Positions 5,537 through 47,640 of a stretch of DNA of 48,518 nt are shown piece by piece (the first letter of the stretch is position 1; the number at the start of each line of letters is the position of its first letter). The notes below the pieces were generated by a model. It saw only the letters and a list, made by a program, of their open reading frames with translations. It was not told the DNA's origin and did no database searches. The stretch covers positions 1 to 48,518 of IMG/VR virus record IMGVR_UViG_3300031952_000029. The stretch is one strand, 5' to 3'. Source of the stretch: a virus. The position numbers and the translations under genes are program-made.

Positions 5537-5554
5537 ATAAAAGAGTAATTTTAT
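5537..5554. repeat. ATAAAA-N6-TTTTAT intergenic palindrome
   Basis: A perfect copy with spacer GAGTAA, followed by TTGATT. It lies between the stop at 5526 and the terminator at 5582. It belongs to the dispersed motif described in the findings. Confidence 0.7.
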
Positions 5555-5581
5555 TTGATTATTTTGTTGTTTTATTACATT

Positions 5582-5618
5582 ATTTCCGTTAGATATGTCG
5601 GATTCTAACGGAAATTTT
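5582..5618 (+). terminator. Rho-independent terminator
   Basis: ATTTCCGTTAGA (5582-5593) and TCTAACGGAAAT (5604-5615) form a perfect 12-bp stem with a 10-nt loop, followed by TTT. The T-run is short, so read-through into the next genes is likely. Confidence 0.7.
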
Positions 5619-5651
5619 GATATTAAATTGAAAATTAAGGAGGTCTAAAAT

Positions 5652-6107
5652 ATGGCAACCTTTAGTGATACTGTTTACGATATGTTTCTTTCTTCGATTT
5701 CTGATTGGAGGCTTGATACCTTATATCAAGTGTCAGGCAGTGCATCATTGAGTACATATATGGAGCCTTGGCTATTAAATTCTATCACGGATTTTGATCC
5801 AGTATGCGATCAAGATTTGACTTATTCAAGTGGCAGTCAGATATTTACTGGTGATTTGACGCAAGAAAATATCAACATGCTTGCAAGAATTATGGAATTA
5901 TATTGGTTTCAAAAAAGAACACAAGATACATTGCAATTTGAAAATAGTTTGCAAGATCATGACTACAAATCCTTTAGTCAGGCACAAAATTTACGTGAGA
6001 AAAAAGACTATTTGAATATGAAAAAAGAAGAGATAAGCCAATTGATAAACGATTATGCTTTTCGTAAAAATGATTTTGCAAGTTGGAAATTGCAAGTCTT
6101 TGATTAA
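5652..6107 (+). CDS. Probable head-tail connector protein
   Basis: This 151-aa protein starts at ATG after AAGGAGG. The first half is mixed and the C-terminal ~60 residues are strongly helical and charged (LREKKDYLNMKKEEISQLINDYAFRKNDF). Size and position between capsid and tail-tube genes suit a connector or adaptor. There is no diagnostic motif, so the function is inferred from context. An IS remnant follows it directly. Confidence 0.55.
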   Translation: MATFSDTVYDMFLSSISDWRLDTLYQVSGSASLSTYMEPWLLNSITDFDPVCDQDLTYSSGSQIFTGDLTQENINMLARIMELYWFQKRTQDTLQFENSLQDHDYKSFSQAQNLREKKDYLNMKKEEISQLINDYAFRKNDFASWKLQVFD

Positions 6108-6113
6108 GTAATG

Positions 6114-6177
6114 CGGGGAAAGATAGGACGAAAGTCATGAGTCGTCAGAAAAGAATATCCCTCTTTTTCTTTCCCCT
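6114..6177. other. Branched hairpin region
   Basis: GGGGAAAGA (6114-6122) pairs with TCTTTCCCC near 6169-6177. Inside it GACGA (6127-6131) pairs with TCGTC (6142-6146). It shares the words AGATAGGACG with the hairpin after the capsid gene at 3741-3804. It overlaps the 5' edge of the transposase remnant. It may be a mobile-element end or an independent RNA structure; no known RNA family is recognised. Confidence 0.4.
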
Positions 6178-6300
6178 CCGAAAGAACTTGGAAAATATTT
6201 CTGGAAAGAGAAAATTTTTTGGAGCAAAGGATATTTTGTGTGTTCAATAGGTAACGCAAACATAGAAACTATTGAAAAATATATTTCAAATCAAGGATAA
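6175..6300 (+). pseudogene. tnpA: IS200/IS605 TnpA remnant (C-terminal 41 codons)
   Basis: A frame ending in TAA at 6298-6300 encodes KYFWKEKIFWSKGYFVCSIG followed by NANIETIEKYISNQG. This matches the C-terminal signature of single-strand Y1 transposases of the IS200/IS605 family (W-S-x-G-Y-F-V, S-x-G-N, then I-x-x-Y-I-x-x-Q). The upstream two thirds of the gene, including the HUH motif and the catalytic tyrosine, are absent, and there is no start. A right-end-like hairpin follows at 6315-6341. The gene is a decayed or internally deleted insertion in the neck module. Confidence 0.78.
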
Positions 6301-6314
6301 TTCTCGCTATTCAT

Positions 6315-6341
6315 CCCAAGAACTAAAGATTCTTGGGTTTT
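6315..6341 (+). mobile_element. IS200/IS605 right-end hairpin
   Basis: CCCAAGAA (6315-6322) and TTCTTGGG (6330-6337) form a perfect 8-bp stem with loop CTAAAGA, followed by TTTT. A CTAAAG loop preceded by TTCATCCC is the form I know for right ends of IS200/IS605 elements. With the TnpA remnant upstream, this marks a relic element. It may now act as a transcription terminator. Confidence 0.65.
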
Positions 6342-6374
6342 CTAGTGAGTAATTTATAAAAAAGGAGGATTGAT

Positions 6375-7649: not shown

Positions 7650-7651
7650 AT

Positions 7652-8197: not shown

Positions 8198-8224
8198 AAT
8201 CACAACAACAGGAGATAACAAAAA

Positions 8225-11649: not shown

Positions 11650-11667
11650 ATAAAACATGAATTTTAT
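11650..11667. repeat. ATAAAA-N6-TTTTAT intergenic palindrome
   Basis: A perfect copy with spacer CATGAA, 12 bases after the preceding stop and about 30 bases before the lysin start. Confidence 0.7.
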
Positions 11668-12447: not shown

Positions 12448-12915
12448 ATGAATACTTATATTTGGGGTCTTGATTTATCTTTGTCAAATACAGGAATTTC
12501 TATATTTGATTTAAATGGAAATATTAAAAAAATAACAAATATCAAAACTAATAATAAAGAAACACATGGTCTTAGATTAAAATGTATTGCTAATAAAATT
12601 TTAGAGATGATAATAGAATTTCCTCCAGAAAAGATTATTATAGAACGAGGATTTTCACGTTTTAATATCTCGACTGCTGTATTATATAGAACACACGGGG
12701 TAATAAATTATTTGTTGTGTGATTATGAACAAATTTATTATACTATAAAAACAATTAAAAAAATAATATTAAATGGAAGCGCAACAAAACAGCAAATTTG
12801 GGCGAAGATATTGTCTGTTTATCCTGACATAAGTTTTGAAAATAATAATGAAAGCGACTCTTGCGCTGTGGGAATTACTTATTTTATAAAAAAAGGAATT
12901 ATTAATTGGAAATGA
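12448..12915 (+). CDS. RuvC-like Holliday junction resolvase
   Basis: This 155-aa protein has the RNase H-fold acidic triad of RuvC-type resolvases. Asp9 lies in GLDLSLSNTGIS, Glu66 in KIIIERGF and Asp137 in ESDSCAVG. It should cut branched DNA made during replication or recombination, allowing packaging of linear DNA. It starts at ATG after AAAGGAA and ends one base before the recombinase start, so the two are translationally coupled. The pair lies inside the tail module, an unusual place for DNA enzymes. It is well supported as a RuvC-fold nuclease; the exact substrate is inferred. Confidence 0.8.
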   Translation: MNTYIWGLDLSLSNTGISIFDLNGNIKKITNIKTNNKETHGLRLKCIANKILEMIIEFPPEKIIIERGFSRFNISTAVLYRTHGVINYLLCDYEQIYYTIKTIKKIILNGSATKQQIWAKILSVYPDISFENNNESDSCAVGITYFIKKGIINWK

Positions 12916-12916
12916 C

Positions 12917-13924
12917 ATGATAAAAAATATTTATAATGTTTTTTTTGACTCGGAAATATGGAAATTAGTCAATCAAGATAATAAAGATTTGCTTGATGAT
13001 TTTCTTATGGAATTAAAACAAAATAAAAAATCATCTGGAACAATCTCGCAATACAAAGCGGATATAAAGGGTATATATTGCTATATTTATAAAAACTTAG
13101 AGAATAAAAGTATATTAGAATTGAACAAAAGAGATTTTCGGACTTATTCTCTTTGGCTGACTGAAAATTGTAAAATTTCTTCTGCTAGACACAATCGCCT
13201 TTTGTCTTCTTTGCGCTCTCTTTTGACATTCGCTGAAAATGAGGATCAATATGAGTACCTTGTAAATACAGCATCCAAAGTAAAAGGTCTTTCTAAAGAA
13301 TCAGTAAGAGAAATTATTTTTCTTACAGATGAACAAATTATGAAATTGAAAAATAAACTTATAGAATTAAAAGAATATCAAAGTGCAACTTTACTAATGC
13401 TTGCATATGATTCTGCAGGTAGAAGAGGAGAGTTATCACAGGTTCAAAAATATTCTTTTTTGGATAATGAAAATAGCAATACTAATCAAGTTGTTGGAAA
13501 AAGACGTAAAAAATTTAGTCTCTTTTATTTTTCAGGGACAAAAGAATGTGCAAAATTATGGTTGCAACAAAGAGGAAATGATACAATAGATTCTCTTTGG
13601 GTAATGGGAAGAAGTGATAATAAATATTCTGTAACAAGGGAAATGTTATATGACTGGTTTTTACGAATTCGTGATTTATTAACTGAGATTGAGGACAAAG
13701 AAACAAAATTTGGAAGTCATAGTATTCGCCATAGTGCGCTACAAAATATGAATAATGGAACTCATTACGTATGCAGAGAATTAGGAATGGAGTCAGGATT
13801 TCCAATAGAAAAATTGCGTCTTTATGCTAATCATGAATCTGTCGATACTACTCAGGGATATTTAAAGGATAATTCTTTGGAGGAACTTGAATCAATGTTT
13901 AAAGTGAAAGTGAATAATATTTAG
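12917..13924 (+). CDS. Tyrosine recombinase (phage integrase family)
   Basis: This 335-aa protein keeps all key catalytic residues. Arg169 lies in SAGRRGEL, a basic hairpin VGKRRKKF supplies the likely Lys, and His268 and Arg271 lie in GSHSIRHS. His306 lies in YANHES and nucleophile Tyr315 in TTQGYL. An N-terminal SAM-like core-binding domain occupies ~20-115. It could integrate the phage genome or resolve multimers. It is coupled to the RuvC-like gene and followed by the tape measure. No attachment site or repressor is recognisable nearby, so a lysogenic role is unproven. Confidence 0.88.
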   Translation: MIKNIYNVFFDSEIWKLVNQDNKDLLDDFLMELKQNKKSSGTISQYKADIKGIYCYIYKNLENKSILELNKRDFRTYSLWLTENCKISSARHNRLLSSLRSLLTFAENEDQYEYLVNTASKVKGLSKESVREIIFLTDEQIMKLKNKLIELKEYQSATLLMLAYDSAGRRGELSQVQKYSFLDNENSNTNQVVGKRRKKFSLFYFSGTKECAKLWLQQRGNDTIDSLWVMGRSDNKYSVTREMLYDWFLRIRDLLTEIEDKETKFGSHSIRHSALQNMNNGTHYVCRELGMESGFPIEKLRLYANHESVDTTQGYLKDNSLEELESMFKVKVNNI

Positions 13925-13959: not shown

Positions 13960-16900
13960 ATGAGTAGTGCAAGCTATGAAGCATTAATTAGAGTAGTTCT
14001 TGATAAGACTGGTTTACAATCACAAATAAACAGTGCCACAAAATCTGCTAAAATGACAATGAAAGCAGATCTTGACCAAAGAAGTCTTGAAATTGTACTT
14101 CAAAAGTGGAAAAATAAAGTAGAAACATTAAAAATAACAAAACCTGCAATATTTAATAATAAGGATGTCCAAGAACAATTAAGAATTTTTGATAATTTGA
14201 CTATTGGCGTTAAGAACGGAACAGTTGCTCTACAAGAGTTGCCAGCACAATGGAGCAATGTTCAAAGGGAAGTTTCAAGAGCTGGCGCAGCAATGAAAGG
14301 CACAGTTAAAGACGGTTATGCCATGAATGAAATGCTTAGTGTTGCTGCTAAAAAAGTAATAATATGGGGCATTGCTACAGAAGCCATTTATGGATCTTTG
14401 AAAAAAATTGGAGAGGGTATTCAATATATCAGAGATTTGAATAAAGAAATGGTTAATATTCAAATTGTTAATAATATGAGTTCTGCACAAATTGCTGATT
14501 TGGCAATGCAATATAATGGTTTAGCAAAAGAATTGGGTACTACTACTTTGGAAGTTGTTAAAGGAAGTTTGGAGTGGATTCGCCAGGGCAAATCCATAGC
14601 AGAAACACAAACATTGCTTAGAGCTAGTACCATGATGAGTAAATTGGCCAACATGGATAGCGCCGCAGCAACAACTACATTGACAGCGACATTAAATGCA
14701 TATAAGTTAGAAGCAAAAGATGCTACAAGTGTATTAGATGTTTTAGTTAATTTAGACAACAACTACGCCACGTCGGTACAAGAAATTAGTGATGCTATGC
14801 AAAGATCTGCAAGCGTAGCTAAACAGGCCGGGGTTGGATATAAAGATTTGGCCAGTTATATTACGGTTATTTCGAGCGTGACGAGGTTAGCGTCGGATAG
14901 TATAGGGCAATCTTTAAAAACAATTTTTCAGAGGATGGAGCAAGTAAAGTTAGGTAAAAAACTTGACGAAGAAGGGGAAGATATTTCTAATGTTGAAAAA
15001 GCCTTGCGAACACAGGGAATTGAAGTTCGTAAAAACGCTTATGAATTTAGAGATATGGATGATGTTTTGTCTGATGTTGCTAAAAAATATAAAGAACTTG
15101 GATTAGCAGGAAAAACAGTAGAACAGTCTATGATGGTTCAAACTATGGCTGGTCTTCGTCAAGGAAATATGCTGACGGCATTATTGAACAATTGGGATAT
15201 GGTAACAGAAGCTCAAAATACAGCCAATACAAGCGCAGGATTAGCAAGTCAAAGATATGAAAAATATCTCTTGGGGGTAGAAGCGGCTGCTAATAGATTG
15301 TCTGATAGTTGGCAATTATTGTGGCAACAAATGTTACCCCCAGAAAAAATAGCTCAATTTTATAATTTTTGGGCGGACGTATTATCTACAATAAATGGTG
15401 CTAGGTTTGCTACATCAAAATCACAACAAACTACGTATACGTTTTTGACAAATCAATTGAAGGCATTAGAAAGTCAAAAAGCTGATTTGGACGCTATGGG
15501 ATTAGAAAAAGGGGTTAGTTATGTTAATCCAGCTCTTGATGCAGCGATAATTGCAGTAAGAGAATCTTTGAACGAATTGTCGGATTCTTTTAAAAAAACA
15601 GGGGATGTAGCAACGGATTCTGCCTCAGACATAGATGGGTATAATAAAGTTCTAGCTGATACACAAATTTTGGCAAGGATGAAAGCAACGGAAGATCTTG
15701 ACGGAATAATGCGACAATATCTTGAGACTCAGAAAGAAGTTCCTCCTGTTGTAGGAGAAGTTGTAAAATCCATTGAAGAACTAACTACTGCAGCAGACAC
15801 ATCCTCCGCATCATTCTTTTCTTCTAATAGTATGCTTGAGTCTGTCCTTGCGGATTACGGTGAATATGGTCAAATAACAATAGATCAAGCATATAAAATG
15901 ATAGATGCTGGTTATGCTGCTGCATTAGCAATTAATGTTGAAACTGGTGCAATTACTATTAATAAACAAGTATTACGAGAATTGGCTATTCTGAAAGCAC
16001 AAGATGCCGAAGCAACCGCTTGGGCTGTTTATCAGGAACAAGATGCTGCTAATAAAAGGATGGCTATAGTTATTCCTTCTATATTGGCAGAAACTGCTGC
16101 TTTACTTGCTAAAGCAAATGCTCTTCATGGCATTACAACACTTTTACAAAAGACTCCCGAAGCAATAACCATTCCTACTCCTTTTATTTCTCCTGCTGTT
16201 GGAGGAGGAGGCGGTGGTTCTTCCGAAAATAAAGCTGAACAAGAATACCAAAAACTTCTTGATGAAACCATCAAAAAAATAAAAGATAAAAAAAATGCAC
16301 AAAAAGATGCATTAAAAGCTGAATTAGATGCGTATAAGAAAATTATAGACGCTGCAAAAGATTTATTAGATCAGAAGAAAGATGAACGTAATTATACTAA
16401 ACAAGTAGAAGAACAATCTAAGACTATTGCAGATATTCAAGAAGAATTATTAGAACTTCAATTTGATAATAGTGCAGAAGCTAATGCCAAAAGATTAGAA
16501 CTACAAGAACAACTTGTTGAAGCACAAGGTGAACTTGAAGACACTCAGTATGATAGAAGTATAGATGTCCAAAAAGAAGCTCTTAATAAAGAATATGAGG
16601 ATTATAAATCCGGTATTGATGCCAGAATAAATGAACTTGAATTATATCTTGCAGATACAGAAAGAATTACCCAAGATGCGATTAGACAAATTGGTAAAGC
16701 AGGACAAGATATGGTTTCGGCTATGGGTGGTGCTATTGCATCTGGAATATCTCAAGTTAATGCATATGCTCAAACAGTGGCAACTACAATAGGTAGTGGT
16801 TGGGCTGCTGCTCAAGATTCAATGGAAAAATATTATCATTCTGCTGCATATTATTCAACTCTGGGTTCTGGATGGTCTGGTATGCCGCCAGAGTATGAAA

Positions 16901-17289
16901 TAGGTTCTGGATGGAGTGTTTGGGCTGCTTCTCAAGATTCAATGGAAAAATATTATCATTCTGCTATGCCAGGAGTACCTTCCTATGATGATGGTGGTAT
17001 TGTATCAGGTATTGCTTCTAGCAAATCAGGAGTAGTATTTGCACAATTATTAAAAGGCGAAGTTGTCGCTACTGACGACATGATGAGAAATTTTATTAAT
17101 AGAACATTACCAAAAATATCATCAACAATTAAAAATGATAGCAATATTACTATATCAATGCCTATTAGTATAGCGGGTAATCTTGATCGTAGTGTTCTTC
17201 CTGATATGGAAAAAATGGTATTAAAAACTGTTAATAATGCCATAAAAAAAAGAGGGGTAGTTAGAAATGCTAATAGTTTTAGCGTATAG
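13960..17289 (+). CDS. Tape measure protein
   Basis: This 1109-aa protein sets tail length and helps DNA delivery. Residues ~130-330 carry the phage tape measure core (ATEAIYGSLKKIGEGIQYIR, MSSAQIADLAMQYNGLAKEL, VLDVLVNLDNNYATSVQEIS). A Gly-rich linker lies near residue 750. Residues ~765-915 are a long charged coiled coil (KKNAQKDALKAELDAYKKII). The C-terminal region has a 40-residue duplication containing AAQDSMEKYYHSA, then the PSYDDGGIVSG segment and LLKGEVV seen at many tape measure ends. The start follows AAAGGAGG. It is rather short for a tape measure; tail length is not estimated here. Confidence 0.9.
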   Translation: MSSASYEALIRVVLDKTGLQSQINSATKSAKMTMKADLDQRSLEIVLQKWKNKVETLKITKPAIFNNKDVQEQLRIFDNLTIGVKNGTVALQELPAQWSNVQREVSRAGAAMKGTVKDGYAMNEMLSVAAKKVIIWGIATEAIYGSLKKIGEGIQYIRDLNKEMVNIQIVNNMSSAQIADLAMQYNGLAKELGTTTLEVVKGSLEWIRQGKSIAETQTLLRASTMMSKLANMDSAAATTTLTATLNAYKLEAKDATSVLDVLVNLDNNYATSVQEISDAMQRSASVAKQAGVGYKDLASYITVISSVTRLASDSIGQSLKTIFQRMEQVKLGKKLDEEGEDISNVEKALRTQGIEVRKNAYEFRDMDDVLSDVAKKYKELGLAGKTVEQSMMVQTMAGLRQGNMLTALLNNWDMVTEAQNTANTSAGLASQRYEKYLLGVEAAANRLSDSWQLLWQQMLPPEKIAQFYNFWADVLSTINGARFATSKSQQTTYTFLTNQLKALESQKADLDAMGLEKGVSYVNPALDAAIIAVRESLNELSDSFKKTGDVATDSASDIDGYNKVLADTQILARMKATEDLDGIMRQYLETQKEVPPVVGEVVKSIEELTTAADTSSASFFSSNSMLESVLADYGEYGQITIDQAYKMIDAGYAAALAINVETGAITINKQVLRELAILKAQDAEATAWAVYQEQDAANKRMAIVIPSILAETAALLAKANALHGITTLLQKTPEAITIPTPFISPAVGGGGGGSSENKAEQEYQKLLDETIKKIKDKKNAQKDALKAELDAYKKIIDAAKDLLDQKKDERNYTKQVEEQSKTIADIQEELLELQFDNSAEANAKRLELQEQLVEAQGELEDTQYDRSIDVQKEALNKEYEDYKSGIDARINELELYLADTERITQDAIRQIGKAGQDMVSAMGGAIASGISQVNAYAQTVATTIGSGWAAAQDSMEKYYHSAAYYSTLGSGWSGMPPEYEIGSGWSVWAASQDSMEKYYHSAMPGVPSYDDGGIVSGIASSKSGVVFAQLLKGEVVATDDMMRNFINRTLPKISSTIKNDSNITISMPISIAGNLDRSVLPDMEKMVLKTVNNAIKKRGVVRNANSFSV
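16801..16965 (+). repeat. 45-bp direct repeat inside the tape measure gene
   Basis: The segments 16801-16845 and 16921-16965 are identical except for one base (G or T at their tenth position). The period is 120 bp (40 codons). They encode the repeated WAA(A/S)QDSMEKYYHSA segment. Such a recent duplication changes protein length in the C-terminal part of the tape measure. Confidence 0.8.
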
Positions 17290-17290
17290 C

Positions 17291-17316
17291 AAAAGAGGGA
17301 ATAAAATCCCTCTTTT
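17291..17316 (+). terminator. Rho-independent terminator after the tape measure
   Basis: AAAAGAGGGA (17291-17300) and TCCCTCTTTT (17307-17316) form a perfect 10-bp stem with loop ATAAAA, two bases after the tape measure stop. The U-tract is formed by the 3' arm itself. Confidence 0.75.
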
Positions 17317-17370
17317 ATCACTAATTAGGATACTTAATTCACTTATTTTATATAAAAACGGAGGTTTTCG

Positions 17371-18147
17371 ATGGGTTTTTATGGAAAAACTTTCGTTTGG
17401 AACTCTGTTCCTAGCGAAACTTATAATTTATATATTACCAATTTTGATACTGGTCGCAAAGATTCGTCTGGTGGAGCAGGGGTAGAAATTTTTACTCAAC
17501 AAATATATCGCAGACCAGTTCCTTATTTTCATGGCGTATCACAAACTCCAGTTTTATCATTTCCATTGACAATAAGTAGTCCTTTACCTATAGATGGTGC
17601 AACTCGAACTATTATAGAATCATGGTTATTTGGAACGCTAAGTTATAAAAAATTACAGATTATGCAATGCGATTTAGATACTGCATATTTCAATGCTTTT
17701 CTTACAGATCCCATTGCTATTTATACTGGGAATTTAAATTATGGGTATGAGTGTACTGTAGTATGTGATGCTCCCTGGGCGTGGGAATTTGCAAGAACTT
17801 TGACAAAATCGTCTGCAACAGCATTTTCATTTTATAATCTTAGTGCAAACAATGACTATTTGTATCCATCCATATCTTTTACTACATCTTCTGTTGGCAA
17901 TTCAATGTCTATAACTAATACAAGCGATGCTAGTCGCATATTTTCTTTTACTGCAATATCTCCGCTTGAAACTATTACTGTAGACAATGATAAAAAAATA
18001 ATAACATCAAGTACAGGATTATATAGATTAAGCAAATTTAATAAAAAATGGTTTAGATTTGTCCCTGGTTTAAATAATCTTACCATGACAGGACTTATTA
18101 CTAATTTGTCTATAACATATCAATTTGCTAAAAAGGTTGGGGGATAA
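17371..18147 (+). CDS. Distal tail protein (Dit)
   Basis: This 258-aa protein has the length, position and sequence style of siphovirus Dit proteins, which form the hub between tail tube and tip. The N-terminal region contains FVWNSVPSETYNLYITNFDT and RPVPYFHGVSQTPVLSFPL. The middle contains YFNAFLTDPIAIYTGN and NYGYECTVVCDAPWAWEF, typical of the siphovirus-type tail component family. The C-terminal half is a beta-rich domain. It starts at ATG after GGAGG and slightly precedes the Tal gene, as expected for a Dit-Tal pair. Confidence 0.82.
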   Translation: MGFYGKTFVWNSVPSETYNLYITNFDTGRKDSSGGAGVEIFTQQIYRRPVPYFHGVSQTPVLSFPLTISSPLPIDGATRTIIESWLFGTLSYKKLQIMQCDLDTAYFNAFLTDPIAIYTGNLNYGYECTVVCDAPWAWEFARTLTKSSATAFSFYNLSANNDYLYPSISFTTSSVGNSMSITNTSDASRIFSFTAISPLETITVDNDKKIITSSTGLYRLSKFNKKWFRFVPGLNNLTMTGLITNLSITYQFAKKVGG

Positions 18148-18151
18148 TAAT

Positions 18152-20758
18152 ATGATACAACTTTTTGATTCTTTTGATAAATTTGAAAATCCCGCAATAA
18201 TTTTATGTAATCCCGACAAAACACAATTATATGAATTAGGAACGATTTACGATAGACAATTAGAGCTAAGATATAATGCATTGTCCAATTTTTCTTTTAT
18301 TGCTCCGTCAAAAGTAAATGAAGTTACGACAGAATATTATGCATCATTAGAATATAGGCGATTGATATATATAGAAAATATTGGATATTTTATGATTACA
18401 GAAATTGACAAAATAAATGATGGAATCATAGAAACAAAAAAAATAAAATGTCAATCTCTTGAGGTTGTTTTTGCAAATAAGAAATTGACAGTGTTTGAGG
18501 GAACTTATCAATTTTATAATGTAATTAGTCCATCAGCTACTTTAATAGGAACAATGCTTAGTTATGTTCCCGGGTGGACTGTGGGAACTATTGATGCTTC
18601 ATTATGGAGTTTATACAGGACTTTTGATGTATCAGATACAACAATATATAGTTTTTTAATGACAGATGTTGAACAAGCATATCAATGTGTTTTTACTTTT
18701 GATACAATTAACAAGACTTTAAGTGCTATTGCTGCTCCAACATCTGCATCCGCTATGTCTTCTACTGATATTTTTATGTCATTTGATAATTTGATTAAGG
18801 AAGTTGATATAACAGAAAAAACAGATGAATTAGTAACTGCATTGAATGTTTATGGCGCTGGTAGTTTAGATATATTAACAGTCAATCCATTGGGAACTCC
18901 TACAATATATAATTTTGATTATTATAAAACTACTGCATGGATGTCAACTGGGTTGATTGCTGCAATTGATGCGTGGAAAGCTAAAATAGTTGTTCAACAA
19001 CCTATATATGCGGGATATTTAACCAGTCTAAAAACTGCGAATTCAGAATTGCTTATATTACAAGCTGCTCTTGCGGTTTTAAATGCTACATTACTTTCAT
19101 TACAGGGAACTCAACGGGTTAGAATAGAACAAGGACTTAGTATTACTGCGGTAAATGCACAAATAATAGCACAGCAAGCGCTGATAACAGCAAAAACATT
19201 AGAGATTACTAATAAGAATGCACAAATTGCGGGGATTTTAGTTTTACTTAGGGCAATTAATACTTTGGTTTCTTTTGCTAGCAATTTTACCGCAGGTCAA
19301 TTGTTGGAATTAGATCCTTTTATTCTTGGTTCTACATATCAAAATGAAAATTTTGTGCAGACTGATATTATGACAGATGTTGAAATTCAAACCATGGCAC
19401 AAAATCTTTATAATCAAGCAATAAATGTTTTGACAAAAGTGTCTACTCCTAGATATGAATTTGAAATTGATTCTGCAAATTTTGTGTTTTTGAAAGAGTT
19501 CTCAACCTTTATTAGTCAATTACAATTAGGATCAACTATTACATTAGAATTAACTACGGATACTTATGTTCAACCTGTTTTGTTAGGTATAGATTTAAAT
19601 TATGATGATCCTACTTATTTTAAGATGATATTTGGAAATAGGTTGAGACTAGATGGTAGTTCCTATGAGTTTAGTGATTTGTATGGATCAAATACAAGTT
19701 CTGCTCTGCAAACTACATTCAATTCGTTACAATGGGATAATTGGAATACAAATTATAGAGATCCTGTTTCATTGTTTATTGAAAGTTCTTTGAATGCATC
19801 GCTAAATAATGTTATTAGTGGCAGTAGCGAAGAAATTCGTATTGATCAAAATGGATTGAGGGGCAGAACTTTTATATCTGGAAGTAGTTATAAGGCTACA
19901 CAGGTGTGGTTGACCAGTAATACCTTAGCGTTCACGAAAGATAATTGGAATACGGCAAGTTTAGCCTTGGGCCAGATAGTGACGCCAACGGGTGGTTCTG
20001 CTTTCGGTTTGGTTGCGGATATTTTAATTGGCCGAATCGTTGCCGGAAACGAATTATTTATATCTAATGCAAACAATAGCTTTATTTTAAACGGAAGTGG
20101 AGCGACACTTACGGATGCAAGCTTTACAATTAATAAAACTGGTGGTCTAAGTAGATTATATATGAATCCTAGTACGGGGATTCAAATACAAAAAAATGTT
20201 GGAGGTACATGGGTCAATCAATTTTCAGTTGATTCTAGTGGTAATGTTACTCTCGCTGGGGTATTGAGTGGAGCGACGGGAACTTTTTCTGGAGCGTTAA
20301 GTGCTGCTACGGGTACTTTTGCTGGTTCTTTGAGTGCTGCTACGGGTACTTTTGCTGGAAATATTTCAGCGGCATCAGGGACTTTTAATGGCAATATTTA
20401 TGCCGCCAATTTGTCAGATCAAGTTCAAAATGATAAAATTGCCGATAATGCAGTCACCAATGCTAAGGTAGCAAGTGGTTTAAGTGCAGCAAAGATTACT
20501 ACAGGAACAATGGTTGCAGATAGGATAAATGGAGGAAGTGGATATGTTGATTATTTAGGCAGTGCCCAAATATTTGTCAATACTCGTCTTACTGTTGCAG
20601 GGGGAGGTATTACCACTTTGAATGGTAGCATTTATCTAAATGGAAGTATTTATACTTCTGGATATCAGGGAAAAACAATTGGTTATAACGTAAAAACGCC
20701 CTATGGCACTGGTACTTTAACTTTTACGAACGGGATATTGACTAATTATGCCGGATAA
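18152..20758 (+). CDS. Tail-associated tip protein (Tal-like) with fibre-like C-terminus
   Basis: This 868-aa protein follows Dit and probably forms the tail tip that contacts the host. Residues ~1-370 match the general layout of Tal/gp44-like hub proteins (IQLFDSFDKFENPAIILCNP, YRRLIYIENIGYFMITEID). A coiled-coil stretch (~290-370) follows. The C-terminal ~300 residues are low-complexity, beta-rich and fibre-like, with an 11-residue repeat (SAATGTFAGSL, SAATGTFAGNI, SAASGTFNGNI) near 20,310-20,400. ATG 18152 is chosen because a GGGGGA ribosome site lies just upstream; the frame is open back to 18125. No peptidase motif is seen. Confidence 0.72.
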   Translation: MIQLFDSFDKFENPAIILCNPDKTQLYELGTIYDRQLELRYNALSNFSFIAPSKVNEVTTEYYASLEYRRLIYIENIGYFMITEIDKINDGIIETKKIKCQSLEVVFANKKLTVFEGTYQFYNVISPSATLIGTMLSYVPGWTVGTIDASLWSLYRTFDVSDTTIYSFLMTDVEQAYQCVFTFDTINKTLSAIAAPTSASAMSSTDIFMSFDNLIKEVDITEKTDELVTALNVYGAGSLDILTVNPLGTPTIYNFDYYKTTAWMSTGLIAAIDAWKAKIVVQQPIYAGYLTSLKTANSELLILQAALAVLNATLLSLQGTQRVRIEQGLSITAVNAQIIAQQALITAKTLEITNKNAQIAGILVLLRAINTLVSFASNFTAGQLLELDPFILGSTYQNENFVQTDIMTDVEIQTMAQNLYNQAINVLTKVSTPRYEFEIDSANFVFLKEFSTFISQLQLGSTITLELTTDTYVQPVLLGIDLNYDDPTYFKMIFGNRLRLDGSSYEFSDLYGSNTSSALQTTFNSLQWDNWNTNYRDPVSLFIESSLNASLNNVISGSSEEIRIDQNGLRGRTFISGSSYKATQVWLTSNTLAFTKDNWNTASLALGQIVTPTGGSAFGLVADILIGRIVAGNELFISNANNSFILNGSGATLTDASFTINKTGGLSRLYMNPSTGIQIQKNVGGTWVNQFSVDSSGNVTLAGVLSGATGTFSGALSAATGTFAGSLSAATGTFAGNISAASGTFNGNIYAANLSDQVQNDKIADNAVTNAKVASGLSAAKITTGTMVADRINGGSGYVDYLGSAQIFVNTRLTVAGGGITTLNGSIYLNGSIYTSGYQGKTIGYNVKTPYGTGTLTFTNGILTNYAG
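20310..20405 (+). repeat. 33-bp repeats in the tip protein gene
   Basis: About three 33-bp units encode SAATGTFAGSL-type 11-residue repeats. The first two are nearly identical at DNA level (GTGCTGCTACGGGTACTTTT in each). They probably form a trimeric beta-helical or fibrous shaft segment. Confidence 0.6.
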
Positions 20759-22250: not shown

Positions 22251-23282
22251 ATGCCTACTAATACTACATTTTTAGGATTAAAAACTTACAATACAACCAC
22301 GGACGGATCTGCATTATTTCAAACTTTTAGAACAGATTTGGCTGGATTGGCTACAACTTCTAATATGAATTTAATAGATACGTTTGCAGCGAATGTAAGC
22401 GGATCGATTACTGCATTGGAGGGGAAAGAGGGAATTGTTTATGTACCTGCTACTTATATATCCCCTAATTATTATGAAGCTACAGTAGCTGATATTGCAG
22501 CATATGCAACGGGGCAATTGATAGATTTGTCATTGAATATTGTTAATGATGGAACTGTAACACTTAAAATAAATGCATTGGCAACAGTAAGTGTTTTAAA
22601 AATCGCTACATCTGGTAGTACCGCAAATATGTCTAATGGTGATTTAAAAGCCAACAAAGAATATTTATTTAGGTATAATGGTGCTGCTTGGATTTGGATA
22701 GACGCAAATAGTATAGAACAAATTAACGCACAAGGAACTTGGGGAAATCTTGTTGCAATAGCAAGTGGAAGTGTTTTAGGAGATAGTGGTATTGCTACTA
22801 TTTCTGGATCAAAAATTGCTGCTGCTCATGTTCCTATTAGCAGTGGTTTGGTCTCAAGTGCAGGTTCTATTATTGCAAATGTAGGGACTGGATTGGTGAT
22901 AAATAGCGGCTCTATTACTGCGAATGTCGGGGCAGGTTTGGTCTCAAGCGCAGGTTCTATTATTGCAAATGTAGGGACTGGATTGGTGATAAATAGCGGC
23001 TCTATTACCGCAAATATTGGGTCTGGTTTAGTCTCGAGCGCAGGTTCTATCGTTGTATCCGCTGGAAGTGGATTAAGAGTTGTTAGTGGGTCTGTAATTG
23101 TTCAGACAAGCGGAAGTATTATTACGATTGATAGTAGCGGTTCTCTGGGGCATAAAACATCTAGCGCATCTCCTATTGCTTATACAACTACGAACATTAC
23201 CTTGGACGCGTACGGACATGTAGTCGCCGCCAGCAATGGAGCTGGAGAAGCTGATATTTTGCAAATACAAATATTTAATTAA
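22251..23282 (+). CDS. Tail fibre protein with 30-residue repeats
   Basis: This 343-aa protein begins with a phage fibre-like N-terminus (NTTFLGLKTYNTTTDGSALF, then a helical linker). Residues ~75-160 form a globular beta domain. Residues ~198-285 contain two full copies and a partial copy of a 30-residue repeat (GLVSSAGSIIANVGTGLV then INSGSITANVGA). A C-terminal domain ends in AYTTTNITLDAYGHVVAAS, similar to fibre tip ends. It should form a trimeric shaft. The start follows GAGGAGG. Receptor specificity cannot be told from sequence. Confidence 0.75.
   Translation: MPTNTTFLGLKTYNTTTDGSALFQTFRTDLAGLATTSNMNLIDTFAANVSGSITALEGKEGIVYVPATYISPNYYEATVADIAAYATGQLIDLSLNIVNDGTVTLKINALATVSVLKIATSGSTANMSNGDLKANKEYLFRYNGAAWIWIDANSIEQINAQGTWGNLVAIASGSVLGDSGIATISGSKIAAAHVPISSGLVSSAGSIIANVGTGLVINSGSITANVGAGLVSSAGSIIANVGTGLVINSGSITANIGSGLVSSAGSIVVSAGSGLRVVSGSVIVQTSGSIITIDSSGSLGHKTSSASPIAYTTTNITLDAYGHVVAASNGAGEADILQIQIFN
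22845..23030 (+). repeat. 90-bp tandem repeats in the fibre gene
   Basis: Units start at 22845, 22935 and 23025 (the third partial), with an exact 90-bp period. The first two units are almost identical. They encode the shaft repeat of the fibre protein. Copy-number change by recombination would lengthen or shorten the fibre in steps of 30 residues. Confidence 0.85.
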
Positions 23283-26553: not shown

Positions 26554-26738
26554 TGAAGATAACTAAGGTAGGAACTAACAAATTCCAGGTTGACGCGGAT
26601 GTAAGTGTCGAGGCTCGGATTGCGGACATGGAAAAGAAACAGGTGCTATTAGTCAAGGCGGTAGATAGTGCAAAGTTAACAAGCAAGGAACTGGCGGATT
26701 TGAAGACTGCGGTGACTAAGGAAGCTGTAGAACAATAA
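26553..26738 (+). CDS. Small charged protein, unknown
   Basis: This 61-aa protein starts at an overlapping TAATG junction. It has a beta-like N-terminus (MKITKVGTNKFQVDADVSV) and a helical C-terminus (ADMEKKQVLLVKAVDSAKL). It is the last gene of the tail cluster, before the probable lysis pair. Its stop TAA lies inside a copy of the ATAAAA-N6-TTTTAT palindrome. Confidence 0.5.
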   Translation: MKITKVGTNKFQVDADVSVEARIADMEKKQVLLVKAVDSAKLTSKELADLKTAVTKEAVEQ

Positions 26739-26752
26739 AATAATACTTTTAT
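26735..26752. repeat. ATAAAA-N6-TTTTAT intergenic palindrome
   Basis: A perfect copy with spacer TAATAC, containing the preceding stop codon and followed by TTGACA. It separates the tail cluster from the probable holin genes. Confidence 0.7.
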
Positions 26753-31795: not shown

Positions 31796-31813
31796 ATAAA
31801 AGGATGATTTTAT
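31796..31813. repeat. ATAAAA-N6-TTTTAT palindrome
   Basis: A perfect copy with spacer GGATGA, 22 bases upstream of the start at 31774. It is followed on the + strand by TTGATTT, as is the copy at 31886. Confidence 0.7.
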
Positions 31814-31823
31814 TTGATTTCGG

Positions 31824-31872
31824 TGTCCCATATATGGGGGTCGCCTGTTGACCAACCCCCACCTGTGGGACA
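31824..31872 (-). other. Strong two-part hairpin between palindrome copies
   Basis: TGTCCCA (31824-31830) pairs with TGGGACA (31866-31872), and inside it TGGGGGT (31835-31841) pairs with ACCCCCA (31855-31861). The two stems are GC-rich and perfect. On the - strand it lies after the adenine methyltransferase stop and before the gene at 31774. It has no T-tract. It may end transcription, control the island genes, or be part of an inserted segment. Confidence 0.6.
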
Positions 31873-31885
31873 TAATTATTTTTCA

Positions 31886-31903
31886 ATAAAAGATAAATTT
31901 TAT
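31886..31903. repeat. ATAAAA-N6-TTTTAT palindrome
   Basis: A perfect copy with spacer GATAAA, overlapping the stop region of the adenine methyltransferase gene. With the copy at 31796 it flanks the hairpin at 31824-31872. Confidence 0.7.
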
Positions 31904-32608: not shown

Positions 32609-32626
32609 ATAAAATAACGATTTTAT
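32609..32626. repeat. ATAAAA-N6-TTTTAT palindrome
   Basis: A perfect copy with spacer TAACGA, 13 bases upstream of the methyltransferase ATG. Confidence 0.7.
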
Positions 32627-32637: not shown

Positions 32638-32655
32638 ATAAAACAATGGTTTTAT
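32638..32655. repeat. ATAAAA-N6-TTTTAT palindrome
   Basis: A perfect copy with spacer CAATGG, 11 bases from the previous copy. It contains the stop codon (32652-32654) of the small membrane gene. Confidence 0.7.
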
Positions 32656-33252: not shown

Positions 33253-33280
33253 AGTATACCACAATTTCCCTGTTTGTCAA
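33253..33280 (-). promoter_or_regulatory. Sigma70-type promoter, extended -10, with inverted repeat
   Basis: On the - strand TTGACA (33280-33275) and TATACT (33258-33253) are 16 bases apart, with TG before the -10 (TGGTATACT). The -10 sits inside an inverted repeat, GGTATA and TATACC (33241-33260), which could be an operator. It lies in a gene-free gap and should drive leftward genes from 33178. Confidence 0.75.
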
Positions 33281-37698: not shown

Positions 37699-37716
37699 AT
37701 AAAATCTAACTTTTGT
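37699..37716. repeat. Near copy of the ATAAAA-N6-TTTTAT palindrome
   Basis: ATAAAA-TCTAAC-TTTTGT has one mismatch in the right arm. It overlaps the end of the gene at 37706 and touches the start of the ThyX-like gene. Confidence 0.5.
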
Positions 37717-39370: not shown

Positions 39371-39388
39371 ATAAAAGCAGTGTTTTAT
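39371..39388. repeat. ATAAAA-N6-TTTTAT palindrome
   Basis: A perfect copy with spacer GCAGTG, in the gap between the genes at 39399 and 39345. Confidence 0.7.
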
Positions 39389-39608: not shown

Positions 39609-39626
39609 ATAGAATCTGTGTTTTAT
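39609..39626. repeat. Near copy of the ATAAAA-N6-TTTTAT palindrome
   Basis: ATAGAA-TCTGTG-TTTTAT has one mismatch in the left arm. It fills the gap between the methyltransferase stop (39627) and the start at 39596. Confidence 0.55.
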
Positions 39627-40575: not shown

Positions 40576-40592
40576 ATAAAAGACTATTTTAT
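40576..40592. repeat. ATAAAA-N5-TTTTAT palindrome (short-spaced copy)
   Basis: ATAAAA-GACTA-TTTTAT has perfect arms but a five-base spacer. It lies upstream of the start at 40564 and touches the stop of the frameshifted small membrane frame. Confidence 0.55.
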
Positions 40593-40778: not shown

Positions 40779-43700
40779 CTAAATTTCCATAGTTGCAACA
40801 ATCTCGTCAAAATTTTTCTGGGGAATTATATCATAATCTTCGATCCACCAATCATAGGTATTATCATTTCGTTTTATAAATTCGCCGTCTTTAAAATCAA
40901 CGGTTTCCTTTTTCTTAAAACTTTTAATTTTAAGAATTTCCCCACCATAAAATATTTTATTATCATAAAGTTTCTTTTGTACTTTTAGGGATGCCCTTGT
41001 CCCATTATTTAAACAATACGTTTCAATACGCGGTGAAAATCTGGTATCTATTGAAAACACATAAACAAATCTCTTATCAACAGGATAAGTAGATTGCAAA
41101 TATCCTAAAATCTCTTTTTCTGCATCTAACTGGTTATTGAAATTAAGTCTCTTGTTTTCTATATTGTTGAAAATATTATGCAATTCTACAAGGCGCAATT
41201 GTTTAGTTTTATTTTTAAGTTTTTTATTATATCTGAATTTTCCTTTTGTGAATTCTTTGTAGAATAAAAGTAGTTTTTTATTGTTTCCAAATTTTTCAAA
41301 ATAATTTATTTTGATGAGGTCTTCAAACTTAGATGAAAAAATATTATTATCAATGGTATATACAAGCAAATCTACGAAATTATTATGTTGTATTTGTGTA
41401 AGATCAAACATATTGTTACCAATGTCTTTTCCAAACCCTTTAATGCTTGTTAAACTTGATGTTATTTCATTCTTTTCTGAAACTGCTACAATTTTTCTAT
41501 TGTCTTGACCAAATCTCATTGGAGGAAATTTAATTTTATAAGCTCTTTCAGCTTCATTTTTAGCATTAGTCATTCTATCTTTATTTCCATCTTGTTCCAT
41601 AAGATTTAAAAATACTTCATAGAACTCCAATGGATAATATGATTTTAAATAAGCACTATAAAGAGAATCTCCTGCCATACTATATGCGTGTGAGGCATTA
41701 AATTGGTAACGTGAACTATCTTCAATGATTTGCCAAGTTAAACTAGCTATTCTTTTTGATTCTTCTAACAATGTATTTTCTTTTAATATAAGCTGAGAAG
41801 TCATTCCATTTAAAAATTGTTCCTTATATTTCAAGACTTTCTCTACACGTTTTTTGGCAATATTTTTTAAAATATCATAGGTTTCAGAAATAGGAATTCC
41901 AGCATATGAAAGAATTTGCATAGATGTTTCTTGATAAAGCATAAATGAAAAAGGAAACTCATTTGTCTGAATAAGATTGTCTAATGACGGAACTCCGTAT
42001 TCAAAAGGTTCTCTTGTCTCAAATTGTTTATAATTTGACTGAAACCCAGGTCTTATACTACTTATAAAAGCAGCTAACTCGGATATATTTTTTGGGGCAT
42101 AAGTTGCTACTCTTCCACTTGTTGACTTTTGTTCTACTTGATTCACACCTACAACAAAAGCATTTTTATATATATCCCATACTTTTTGATTATTAGCACA
42201 TAATTCGATAAGTTTAGGTAATGAATGAGGCTCAATTCCTATTCTTTCATAAACTCTGTAAATCAAGTCTACAACAGAAACCTTTAGCAAATCATTTTTG
42301 ATAAATTTATAATCCTCTGCCCAAAGACCATCCATACATGAACAAATATGTTCTTTTGTTTTTATTAATCCAATTTCTTCTTTAATATTTTTATTATATA
42401 AAATACTGCCGCAAGGGTGTATTTTAAAATTATCAATAATGCCCAAATATTTTTCACTTTCTTTGTAATATTCCAAATATTTATTTGGAATAAATTGATC
42501 TATGAGAACAGATTCATCTTCATTATCTGAATATTTTAATGTTGTTTCATATTTATCAATTGCCTTAGATATTTCATTTGCGATATCAAAATCAATATCT
42601 ATAGCCCTTGCATACATTTTCCAGCATGATTTTTTACTAAGTGTTCCATACGCAATCATAGGATATGAATGATCTTCTCCAAGAATTTCTTGTTGTGCTT
42701 TGAAAAATACTTCTGGATTACTTAAATTGAAATCTATATCTGGTAAACTCCCGGCTTCTAGAATTCTTTCTTTGGTAATAAATCTTTCCGGAAATAATTT
42801 AATAGAAGCAGAAATTCGATCAATAGTTGTAAATTTTAATAGTTTACAAATATAGAAACTAGATGCTGAACCTCTCCCTGTTAGAGTAATATGACCACCA
42901 TTTTCTTTTCCTGTCTTGATTATCTCATAATTTAAAAGAAAATAGTCTGCCATATTTGTGGATATTATCGTATTAAGTTCTTTGGATATTTCTTCTTTGT
43001 AATGTTCCCATTTTTCTTGTGAAACATCCGTTTTTTCTATATTCCAATTACTCCAAATAAGATTTGATAAAATTGTGTTTTTTTCTTCTTGAGATTTTTC
43101 AGGATATAATGTAGGAAGCTTTATATTTTTTGTAAAGATATCTGACCTATATTCTTCGACATCTAAAAATATATTTGTATTATCAATTGCGGTTGCAATT
43201 TCCAAATCAGACAAAATTCCCTGTTGTTGAAATCTTGAAACGCAGGTATCATAATCAGTATAATCTAATAACCATCCTTCTTCATCTTCATATTTTATTT
43301 TTTTAGATAATAAGAAATTATCTCTATTTTTGGCTTGTTCTGGATAAATATAATGCGAATCACATCCCATTATAATTTTGATATTATTTTTAACTGCAAG
43401 ATTTAGAATTCTAGCATTTAGATTTTTTTGGGATTGAACATTATGATATTGAACTTCAAGAAAGAAATTGTCTTTAAAATGATTATGAACTTGTAATATC
43501 AATTCATCTGCATTATCATATTTCCACAAACCCGCAATACAGGCTGTTGTAATCCAAACAGAATTAGGACTAAGAGACAGAAGCAATTCCATATCTATTC
43601 TTGGCCGATAATAAAAGCCTGAAATGCTAGCTTCTGATAAAATTCTATTGATACCTTTGCGTCCATTCTCATTAATTCCTAAAATATTTATATGACAATT

Positions 43701-44697: not shown

Positions 44698-44715
44698 ATA
44701 AAACTAACATTTTAT
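44698..44715. repeat. ATAAAA-N6-TTTTAT palindrome
   Basis: A perfect copy with spacer CTAACA. It contains the stop codon of the small CxxC gene (44712-44714). Confidence 0.7.
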
Positions 44716-44885: not shown

Positions 44886-44893
44886 TTATTTTA

Positions 44894-46225: not shown

Positions 46226-46530
46226 GTGTTATCAAAAAACATTGTCAATTCGCGAATATTGAATTTGTAATGTCCACCATTCCTGGATTCTTCCCAACAT
46301 AATGTCCAAAAAAGAGTATTTTCTTGCAATGCACTAATAATTTGCTCATTTCCAGACCATCCTCCAGTATGTAATTCATAATTATTATCATCTATTTGAG
46401 TAAAATAATCATCCCAATGCCACAATCCTTTGATATATTGCATGAGATGATAATAGTCAGGAGGATCTTTATAAACCCAATGAGCAATTGTTGATAAATC
46501 TTCTTCATCTGGATAATCTAATTTGTTCAT
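46222..46530 (-). CDS. Conserved hypothetical protein
   Basis: This 102-aa protein contains HTGGWSGNEQIISALQENTL, LCWEESRNGGHYKF, a pattern found in widespread uncharacterised bacterial and phage proteins. It is Trp/Tyr-rich. The stop overlaps the methyltransferase start, so expression is linked. No function is established. Confidence 0.6.
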   Translation of the reverse strand: MNKLDYPDEEDLSTIAHWVYKDPPDYYHLMQYIKGLWHWDDYFTQIDDNNYELHTGGWSGNEQIISALQENTLFWTLCWEESRNGGHYKFNIRELTMFFDNT

Positions 46531-46532
46531 AA

Positions 46533-46820
46533 TTATTTCTTGTTTAGATTTAACATTAATACATTTTTATTTTCATAATGCTCTTTAAGTTTAGTGATAA
46601 CAAGAGCTACTGCATAATTATTAATCCATGTTTCTTGACCTTCATTAATCCAAGTCATACACGTAACCTTATCCCTATTTAAATCATATAGAATTCCTTC
46701 TGTCGGCTGTTCAATAAACTCATTGATGTCAATGAAAGCAAGTCCTTCAAGTGTATTGAATACGATTTTTCCTTCTTTTTCTTTTTTCAAAATAAATTCT
46801 TGCAGTTCTTTTTTATCCAT
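46533..46820 (-). CDS. Small unknown protein
   Basis: This 95-aa protein starts at ATG 46820 after AAGGAAAA; the frame is open further to 46844. It has a charged helical N-terminus (ELQEFILKKEKEGKIVF) and a mixed C-terminal part. A perfect palindrome copy lies 12 bases before its start. No family is recognised. Confidence 0.55.
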   Translation of the reverse strand: MDKKELQEFILKKEKEGKIVFNTLEGLAFIDINEFIEQPTEGILYDLNRDKVTCMTWINEGQETWINNYAVALVITKLKEHYENKNVLMLNLNKK

Positions 46821-46832
46821 AAAATTTTCCTT

Positions 46833-46850
46833 ATAAAATCCCAATTTTAT
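46833..46850. repeat. ATAAAA-N6-TTTTAT palindrome
   Basis: A perfect copy with spacer TCCCAA, 12 bases upstream of the start at 46820. Confidence 0.7.
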
Positions 46851-46866
46851 CTCCTAAAAATAATTC

Positions 46867-47325
46867 TTATCTGTAATTGATAAATATTATTTCTTCATTC
46901 CAATTTTTTACCATGTGCAAAATACAACACTGTACTCTCGATCCTTTAAAAATACTTCTTGGTAAATGTGTAATAGATTGCAATCCATACTCTATAATAT
47001 CTTTTGTTCTTTTTTCTCCATTAATTATAACTAACCAAGGCATTAATGCTACAATTTCATTACTAAGTTCCATACATCTATATAAAAACTTATATCCCTC
47101 TTTCATTGGAGAGAATGGTGGATTCATAACAATGCAATCATATTTTTGAATATGTTGCATTTTCCAGAAATCATCATCTGGAACAATGGGATTTAATCCA
47201 TAGCTTTTTATTGCCCTTACTATATTTCCATCGCCAGGAGTTGGTTCTAAGATCATTCCTCCTTTTGGTGCGTAAGTTATTCCAACCATATACATTGCTA
47301 TATTTAAAGGTGTTTGAAAATTCAT
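46867..47325 (-). CDS. Small SAM-dependent DNA methyltransferase (NPPF type)
   Basis: This 152-aa protein has the SAM-binding ILEPTPGDGNIVRAIKSYG and the catalytic CIVMNPPFSPMKEGYKF, as in N6-adenine methyltransferases, and little else, so it is a minimal version. ATG 47325 is chosen (no ribosome site); GTG 47334 is also in frame. The palindrome lies 10 bases before the ATG. It may modify DNA or another substrate. Confidence 0.75.
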   Translation of the reverse strand: MNFQTPLNIAMYMVGITYAPKGGMILEPTPGDGNIVRAIKSYGLNPIVPDDDFWKMQHIQKYDCIVMNPPFSPMKEGYKFLYRCMELSNEIVALMPWLVIINGEKRTKDIIEYGLQSITHLPRSIFKGSRVQCCILHMVKNWNEEIIFINYR

Positions 47326-47330
47326 AATTT

Positions 47331-47612
47331 TCACAATAAAAGACAGGTTTTATTTCTTTTAAGTTTTTCCCTTTTTAAAACGCTATTTAGCGCATTATTA
47401 TAGGCTATCATTGTTGTTTCGCCATCAAATATCAATTCTGGATATATTTCTCCTATTTTTTCACGAGCATCTTTGAATAAGGTTTCATCAGTAAATTTTA
47501 ATTCATTATATTTTGCAAGTTTTTGTAATTTCCTACTTACTTGTCTTGCAACCTCAAAATCTTTTTTTGCCCATTCTGGAATGGTATTTTGTTCTATGTG
47601 TTTTTTATTCAT
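47331..47612 (-). CDS. Small unknown protein
   Basis: This 93-aa helical, charged protein (EVARQVSRKLQKLAKYNELK, MIAYNNALNSVLKREKLKRN) starts at ATG 47612 without a clear ribosome site; a palindrome copy lies 10 bases upstream. Its last codons (NKTCLLL) run through the next palindrome copy at 47336-47353. No family is recognised. Confidence 0.5.
   Translation of the reverse strand: MNKKHIEQNTIPEWAKKDFEVARQVSRKLQKLAKYNELKFTDETLFKDAREKIGEIYPELIFDGETTMIAYNNALNSVLKREKLKRNKTCLLL
47336..47353. repeat. ATAAAA-N6-TTTTAT palindrome
   Basis: A perfect copy with spacer GACAGG. It overlaps the 3' end of the gene at 47331-47612 and lies 10 bases before the methyltransferase ATG. Confidence 0.7.
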
Positions 47613-47622
47613 AATTTCGCCA

Positions 47623-47640
47623 ATAAAATAGGCATTTTAT
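47623..47640. repeat. ATAAAA-N6-TTTTAT palindrome
   Basis: A perfect copy with spacer TAGGCA, where the symmetry extends to AATAAAAT and ATTTTATT. It fills the gap between the genes at 47641 and 47612. Confidence 0.75.

Follow-up and report, generated by a model that had tools for sequence, protein, structure and literature searches.

The mosaicism of phage genomes is usually ascribed to selection acting on the products of homologous and illegitimate recombination, and phage integrons are reportedly the subject of a published study. In phage SPbeta, an excerpt of PMC10516654 describes a regulator, MrpR, that binds ten peaks, and an excerpt of PMC5467207 has the late genes transcribed by a phage RNA polymerase, YonO, whose promoter sequence is unknown. 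Here we analyse IMG/VR virus record IMGVR_UViG_3300031952_000029, whose whole length of 48,518 bp we call the window, and the 18-bp palindrome ATAAAA-N6-TTTTAT, two inverted arms around a six-base spacer, that is dispersed through it and through other phage genomes. We propose, with a probability of about 0.82, that these palindromes are barcoded core sites of a tyrosine recombinase that serve cassette exchange between phages. No description of such sites was found in searches of open-licence PubMed Central papers, which leave priority uncertain.

The window is AT-rich (guanine-plus-cytosine content 0.32), with a rightward arm of structural genes, including a capsid-protein homologue, the tape measure and the tail, and a leftward arm that encodes ribonucleotide reductase, DNA polymerase, methyltransferases and an HNH nuclease. 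It holds 14 perfect copies of the palindrome: the 12 listed in an earlier reading of the letters (the original prediction), every one of them where it had been placed, and two more at 17301 and 41264. Under Markov models, whether of order 1 in blocks of 500 bases or of orders 3 and 4 for each arm, 0.21–0.26 copies are expected, in agreement with the figure of about 0.2 first offered, and the motif is enriched over shuffled controls. Among all hexamers at spacers of 0–30, ATAAAA with a six-base spacer is the top inverted repeat, and any other spacer length yields only 0–2 copies each with the same arms, the spacer length being almost always six. The near copies are also as described, with one mismatch each at 37699 and 39609 and a five-base spacer at 40576; another five-base-spacer copy lies at 8334. 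Placement at gene boundaries holds in large part: judged against open reading frames (ORFs) that we picked from ORF lists, 13 of the 14 perfect copies lie in or overlap a gene gap, the exception being 41264, inside the DNA polymerase gene. The observation is confirmed, in that the palindrome is real, beyond chance, and resembles a dimer-type protein-binding DNA site, and the interpretation then given to it is partly supported. The sites and site-bounded parts of the window are as follows:

5537–5554, no strand: site, spacer GAGTAA.
11650–11667, no strand: site, spacer CATGAA.
17301–17318, no strand: site, spacer TCCCTC, maybe chance; a terminator-like hairpin just 3' of the tape measure gene overlaps it.
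26735–26752, no strand: site, spacer TAATAC.
31796–31813, no strand: site, spacer GGATGA, left edge of a 72-bp mini-cassette.
31814–31885, minus strand: 72-bp GC-rich insert flanked exactly by two sites, with no assigned gene.
31886–31903, no strand: site, spacer GATAAA, right edge of the 72-bp mini-cassette.
32609–32626, no strand: site, spacer TAACGA, with the next site 11 bp away.
32638–32655, no strand: site, spacer CAATGG.
39371–39388, no strand: site, spacer GCAGTG.
39609–39626, no strand: near copy ATAGAA-TCTGTG-TTTTAT.
41264–41281, no strand: perfect copy, spacer GTAGTT, within the DNA polymerase gene; possibly chance.
44698–44715, no strand: site, spacer CTAACA, adjoining an HNH endonuclease gene.
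46833–46850, no strand: site, spacer TCCCAA.
47336–47353, no strand: site, spacer GACAGG.
47623–47640, no strand: site, spacer TAGGCA.
47845–47862, no strand: relaxed site ATAAAA-ACAAAT-TTTTAA, whose outermost base shows a T/A variant common in SPbeta relatives.

The hairpin at 17301 was recognised as terminator-like by eye, and the palindromic shape of that copy may derive from it. The variant arm of the near copy at 39609 occurs 6 and 9 times in the pooled genomes, against 0.7–0.8 at other spacers. The 92 nt from 31804 to 31895, which span the 72-bp insert, have a predicted fold of −31.3 kcal/mol (z −3.6); we infer that this hairpin insert resembles a tiny cassette and that the 11-bp pair at 32609 and 32638 resembles an empty one.

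The meaning of the spacers emerges from ten natural SPbeta-like phages (SPbeta, phi3T, Goe11, Goe13, Goe14, BUCT083, SPbetaL1, L4, L8 and SPR, a selection from the records matched). The relaxed pattern WTRAAA-N6-TTTYAW occurs 34–43 times in each, and spacers of 2–5 and 7–10 give 0–5; perfect copies number 13 in SPbeta and 14 in phi3T. With the laboratory hybrid Hyb1 included, there are 72 spacer labels, 46 of which are present in at least three of the ten phages. Across 45 phage pairs, 1,173 labels are shared and none violates one circular order, while the 16 differences in orientation all come from the label TGATAA. The check in relatives suggested with the original prediction did not refute the motif: sites held in common retain their spacers and order, individual phages lacking some of them. 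No spacer is repeated within any SPbeta-like genome. In 13 divergent genomes or partial records including SPbeta (435 sites), no spacer is repeated, against 10.8 expected (1,000 column shuffles, minimum 2 repeats), and none is self-palindromic, against 10.2 expected (P 0.001), which agrees with the unique, non-palindromic spacers expected where self-recombination must be avoided. The same adjacent pair of barcodes encloses the same DNA in 303 of 884 comparisons, partly the same DNA in 357 and unrelated DNA in 224. By these comparisons the spacers are position-specific barcodes; the earlier description of a variable spacer between fixed arms stands as to the sequence, which does vary, and needs correcting in that the spacer is not simply free, being a position label in SPbeta relatives.

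Two further observations concern individual barcodes. In the yorM region of SPbeta, AAGTCA, GAGTCA and GAATCA are one- or two-base variants at apparently one position in different phages, and perhaps reveal how barcodes diverge. Reversed relative to their neighbours are TGATAA at phi3T 89339 and BUCT083 35339, and GCATGA between G015 36807 and G012 50440 (two relatives of the window), as if the site or cassette had flipped.

Homology between phages switches at the sites. Four junctions between SPbeta and phi3T, inspected base by base, all fall within sites that have a common spacer: at TGTAAG, GATCAA and TTCTAA the left flanks are unlike and homology starts at the site, and at GTAAAA homology stops at the site; at two of the four the arms are also unlike (TTTTAA/TTTCAT and TTAAAA/ATAAAA). 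The 3.2-kb segment from TGTAAG to GTAAAA is 99.97% identical in the two phages, and the DNA immediately outside it is unlike. Over all same-spacer pairs in the ten phages, both flanks are alike in 348, one in 433 and neither in 392. The one-flank pairs, which involve 40 of 52 labels, have an identity of ~0.8–0.97 before the site, 0.45–0.75 over the seven bases that follow it and ~0.25–0.47 farther on; their near-identity within the site arises partly because the spacer and the pattern define the set. The far arm is unlike in 120 of these pairs and the near arm in 34, an excess expected if the exchange point lies between the arms. Of 364 sites, 262 have a homology block end no more than 25 bp away; the corresponding figures are 44 of 260 for other-spacer palindromes and 28 of 364 for positions drawn at random. 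Because gene borders are break-prone in general, SPbeta gaps with and without a site were compared: breaks occur in 29 of the 31 gaps that have a site versus 53 of the 101 that lack one (Fisher p 1.4e-5), and, for gaps of 25–120 bp, in 16 of 18 versus 34 of 62 (p 0.012).

A history of recombination at the sites is well supported by these sequences, the pattern being that left by site-specific recombination at core sites of a tyrosine recombinase. In the window and its relatives, inverted arms surround a spacer fixed at 6 bp, as in a recombinase core site, where it has 6–8 bp, and two other properties of such a site, spacer identity between partners and exchange between the arms, are seen through genome comparison only. 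A putative counter-defence gene lies in such a cassette: between barcodes ACTATC (83281) and TAAATA (84633), phi3T has a 279-aa ORF (83666–84505), and SPbeta has an unrelated 341-bp cassette. We take this ORF as nip because its length matches the 279 aa of the phi3T counter-defence protein so named in an excerpt of PMC11984713.

In the window's own lineage, no relative close enough to compare the window's spacers was found. Its relatives G015 and G012 have 16 spacers in common, all in collinear order with GCATGA reversed, with one flank alike at, for example, AATCTA, ATATCA, CGATGA and TAATCA. Sites lie at block ends in 6 of 45 cases for G015/G012 (0.8 expected), 1 of 45 for G015/G016 (0.4 expected) and 2 of 26 for G012/G016 (0.3 expected).

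What genome comparison displays directly, namely the sites, their barcodes, the barcode order and the switching of homology, may be accounted for by the following scheme. Each 18-bp palindrome would serve a tyrosine recombinase of the phage as a core site: the enzyme would bind the two inverted arms (W T R A A A, 6 bp each), and the 6-bp spacer would be the strand-exchange region, with the exchange point inside it. As recombination would require identical spacers, a site would react only with the same-spacer site of another phage genome in the cell, whether co-infecting or resident, and deletion or inversion within one genome would be avoided because its spacers differ and are non-palindromic. 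Two relatives in one cell could then swap the cassette that lies between two matching pairs of sites, in what would be a position-addressed cassette exchange. We consider it likely that an entire group of large Firmicute phages runs such an address-coded exchange genome-wide. Their gene borders would carry tens of orthogonal sites, each under a private six-base barcode, by which phages sharing a cell would trade accessory genes, such as the counter-defence gene nip, between matching addresses and yet keep their genomes in order.

The candidate enzyme is encoded in the window next to two genes of note:

12448–12915, plus strand: RuvC-like Holliday-junction resolvase, directly 5' of the recombinase gene.
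12917–13924, plus strand: YomM-family tyrosine recombinase of 335 aa, the proposed enzyme of the sites, with six catalytic residues assigned from sequence.
13960–17289, plus strand: tape measure gene, directly 3' of the recombinase gene.

The product of 12917–13924 matches PF00589 (E 3.4e-9, above the cut-off) and the XerC model (1.3e-14, below that model's curated cut-off), has no match at E 0.01 among the sequences of solved structures, and presents R169, K195, H268, R271, H306 and Y315, the R-K-H-R-H/W-Y set of a tyrosine recombinase catalytic domain. By position as well as by sequence it is the homologue of SPbeta yomM, and YomM is present in all ten SPbeta-like phages at 64.6–100% identity to the SPbeta protein. 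From the YomM-protein loci gathered (60+18+71), 50 records on contigs of at least 60 kb were chosen before sites were counted; G001 and G008, whose counts existed already, were left out, as were most of the long SPbeta-like and Lactococcus-like contigs and five others, and the 50 are not independent, some being near-copies. They contain 531 sites, against 21 for a reversed-pattern control, and 41 of the 50 have at least four. In CB473P1 and Phass-1, an ORF-based search found no gene in the YomM position, and neither phage has sites; Phass-1 is filed in the 'code 15' clade, where such a search may miss the gene. The window's YomM is the best candidate enzyme for the sites. A second tyrosine recombinase, YopP, is a less likely enzyme: it is only 32% identical between SPbeta and phi3T though many barcodes are common, and in Enterocloster phage CB473P1 a YopP-like protein is encoded, yet the genome is free of sites and no gene turned up in the YomM position. 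Both YopP and MrpR of phi3T and BUCT083 are 29–32% identical to the SPbeta versions, despite the many common barcodes.

Some side observations were also made. At phi3T 71284–74775 versus SPbeta 78670–82257, YopP and MrpR form alleles (phi3T, BUCT083) of ~30% identity, like an immunity switch. The tail region of the window has spaced tandem repeats of 45 bp (22845–23114) and 147 bp (23753–24340), and a Sigma-A-like promoter, TTGACA-16-TATACT, was recognised by eye on the minus strand at 33253–33280.

The element is shared by numerous large phages of Firmicutes, among them SPbeta, phi3T, FADO and Geobacillus virus E3. A search of IMG/VR for motif pairs 5–35 bp apart returned 14 stretches, and a separate search for ribonucleotide reductase relatives returned four loci, two contigs being common to both. 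Whole records hold 53 perfect copies in G008 (137.7 kb), 32 in G015 (112.0 kb), 22 in G012 (63.2 kb) and 19 in G001 (91.5 kb), against 0.3–1.35 expected; the counts for G008, G012 and G001, which surfaced via the motif, may be biased upward, and G015 was found by protein only. The reductase relative G016 has just 3 in 34.7 kb. Among 13 named phages, FADO has 30 perfect copies, E3 17, Perkons 9 and the rest 0–2. At position 1 the arms accept A or T and at position 3 A or G, the same variants occurring in both arms; the pattern ATRAAA-N6-TTTYAT gives 38 sites in Perkons, 65 in G001, 18 in MT835469, 12 in KKP_3916, 5 in MT835481 and 3 in Sundance (mean at other spacers 0.6), with no enrichment in 949 (2), PMBT69 (1), CB473P1 (0) or Phass-1 (0). 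In the Lactococcus phages, N6 inverted repeats overall are mildly elevated (949, z 2.0; PMBT69, z 1.4). Bacterial genome contigs show the motif-pair pattern in 103 stretches from very mixed organisms, many of which may be chance. Other palindromes were seen in passing: the gut phage Phass-1 (OQ749652, loci L144–L150), in which YomM was not found, has 12 copies of one around TAAAAA-N2-TTTTTA, and Sundance (KT151959, loci L131–L137) repeats AATACATGTATT in 6 copies. The window's DNA polymerase retrieved no relative when used as an IMG/VR query; a DNA polymerase homologue in G006 (15186–18377, locus L051) has one in-frame TAG, a possible stop recoding.

Among other explanations, it is unlikely that the sites are conserved linkers at gene boundaries, where ordinary homologous or illegitimate recombination joins modules with no dedicated recombinase. 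Gene boundaries are indeed break-prone generally, as the 53 of 101 gaps without a site attest, and the Hyb1 crossovers lie over long homology; yet nothing in a linker predicts arms that are inverted, a spacer held at 6 bp, the lack of repeated or self-palindromic spacers, or replacement of the far arm, and a stretch of 18 bp is very short to support homologous recombination. A similarly unlikely reading, one of the options listed in the original prediction, makes the sites dimeric operators or stoperators of a phage regulator such as MrpR at many promoters, with recombination as a by-product. The sites are palindromic, intergenic and many-copy, and one lies within 300 bp upstream of three of the ten MrpR target genes (yorE, aimR and yosX, targets as given in the excerpt of PMC10516654). 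The other seven of those listed targets have none, unlike what membership of the SPBRE element would entail; an operator with a free spacer leaves one spacer per position, without repeats or palindromes, unexplained; MrpR is just 30% identical between phi3T and SPbeta, yet many sites are common; and no clear MrpR was found in motif-carrying G008 (one weak cross-match), G015, G001 or MT835469, some of which may be incomplete records. In SPbeta relatives the spacer labels genome position and flanking DNA is exchanged at the site; neither an operator nor a transcription signal is supported. MrpR/SPBRE was rejected for reasons of position, distribution and spacer pattern. A k-mer look for SPBRE found ATGTAT-like words in 9–10 of the 10 target promoters named in that excerpt, a weak signal unlike the palindrome. 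Stoperators of the mycobacteriophage type are asymmetric and oriented with transcription, and the present site is symmetric.

An RNA hairpin for processing, stability or translation, also among the options first raised, is most improbable. The perfect inverted arms do stand near stop and start codons. Of 308 sites, 264 lie between ORFs and 44 inside one. Six A-U pairs with a 6-nt loop make a weak hairpin, however, and for mixed-arm sites between same-strand genes in 11 genomes the sense RNA would have G.U in 50 cases and an A/C mismatch in 46 (p=0.76); this balance contradicts selection for RNA pairing, and a hairpin leaves the barcodes unexplained. The chance that the sites are promoters of YonO is close to nil. 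YonO does transcribe the SPbeta late genes, and the excerpt of PMC5467207 reports a start upstream of yonK, but no site lies at SPbeta 58900–61400, and YonO was not detected in FADO and E3, which have 30 and 24 sites. Host XerCD/dif was also considered and ruled out on its arms: dif has asymmetric XerC and XerD arms and one or few sites, whereas here the same variants occur in both arms and sites number tens per genome.

Several results weigh against the proposal of barcoded recombinase sites. As to the barcodes, TGATAA is reversed in phi3T and BUCT083 relative to the eight other SPbeta-like phages, the missing self-palindromic spacers are due mainly to the outermost spacer pair, spacer uniqueness alone is significant in none of 8 divergent genomes taken singly, and the five spacers shared by the distant relatives G015 and G008 are out of order and probably chance. 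Regarding the junctions, phi3T has no clear site opposite SPbeta 12495, SPbeta/phi3T homology extends 36 bp beyond site 132746 and begins 46 bp ahead of site 39885, and to the left of the TATAGA site homology in Goe11, L1, SPR and others continues for ~100 bp; only 494 of all 2,569 homology block ends lie at sites, and breaks are also frequent in gene gaps without one. Hyb1 contains long parental blocks that fit homologous recombination, and in Hyb1 and the hybrid PP526179 the parental flanks at sites are identical or almost so. With respect to the enzyme, YomM of SPbeta, phi3T, E3 and Perkons has Lys in place of the second catalytic Arg, nine of the 50 YomM-chosen records have just 0–3 sites, YomM is present in Lactococcus 949 and PMBT69, where sites are unenriched, and in Sundance with its three, KKP_3916 has its YomM as two overlapping frames, and the partial records G012, G011, G006 and G003 have sites with no gene found in the YomM position and no tape measure gene found. 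In Hyb1 (MT366946), separately, 104033–109492 has no match to either parent in blocks of at least 500 bp at 99.5%.

If barcoded exchange is true, a dedicated, position-addressed process would account for clean swaps of accessory genes at gene borders, and barcoded sites may predict where accessory and counter-defence genes are located. SPbeta offers a tractable model in which the idea is directly testable, and tens of natural orthogonal sites for one recombinase could become a DNA assembly tool.

Compared with known systems, the sites share with SPBRE/MrpR of SPbeta, as described in the excerpt of PMC10516654, a repeated intergenic element bound by a protein of tyrosine-recombinase fold, but they lie mostly at other positions, and MrpR is there a repressor whose recombinase function is lost. 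Lambdoid boundary sequences, invoked for modular evolution, are likewise short conserved sequences at module borders, with no known palindrome, barcode rule or linked recombinase. Integron attI/attC cassettes are similar in that a tyrosine recombinase moves small, site-bounded gene cassettes; in the phages no platform site or common attC core was seen (no search for integrons was made), a separate barcode marks each position, and exchange would be position for position. The pdif modules, XerCD sites that bound modules of Acinetobacter plasmids, are alike in their dispersed tyrosine-recombinase-type sites, variable 6-bp spacers and location at module borders, whereas the phage sites have symmetric arms, an enzyme likely encoded by the phage, and dozens of spacers in one fixed genome order. 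Engineered heterospecific lox sites for recombinase-mediated cassette exchange rely on the same principle of orthogonal spacers in one arm design that permit swaps, and the phage system would be a natural counterpart with tens of orthogonal sites per genome.

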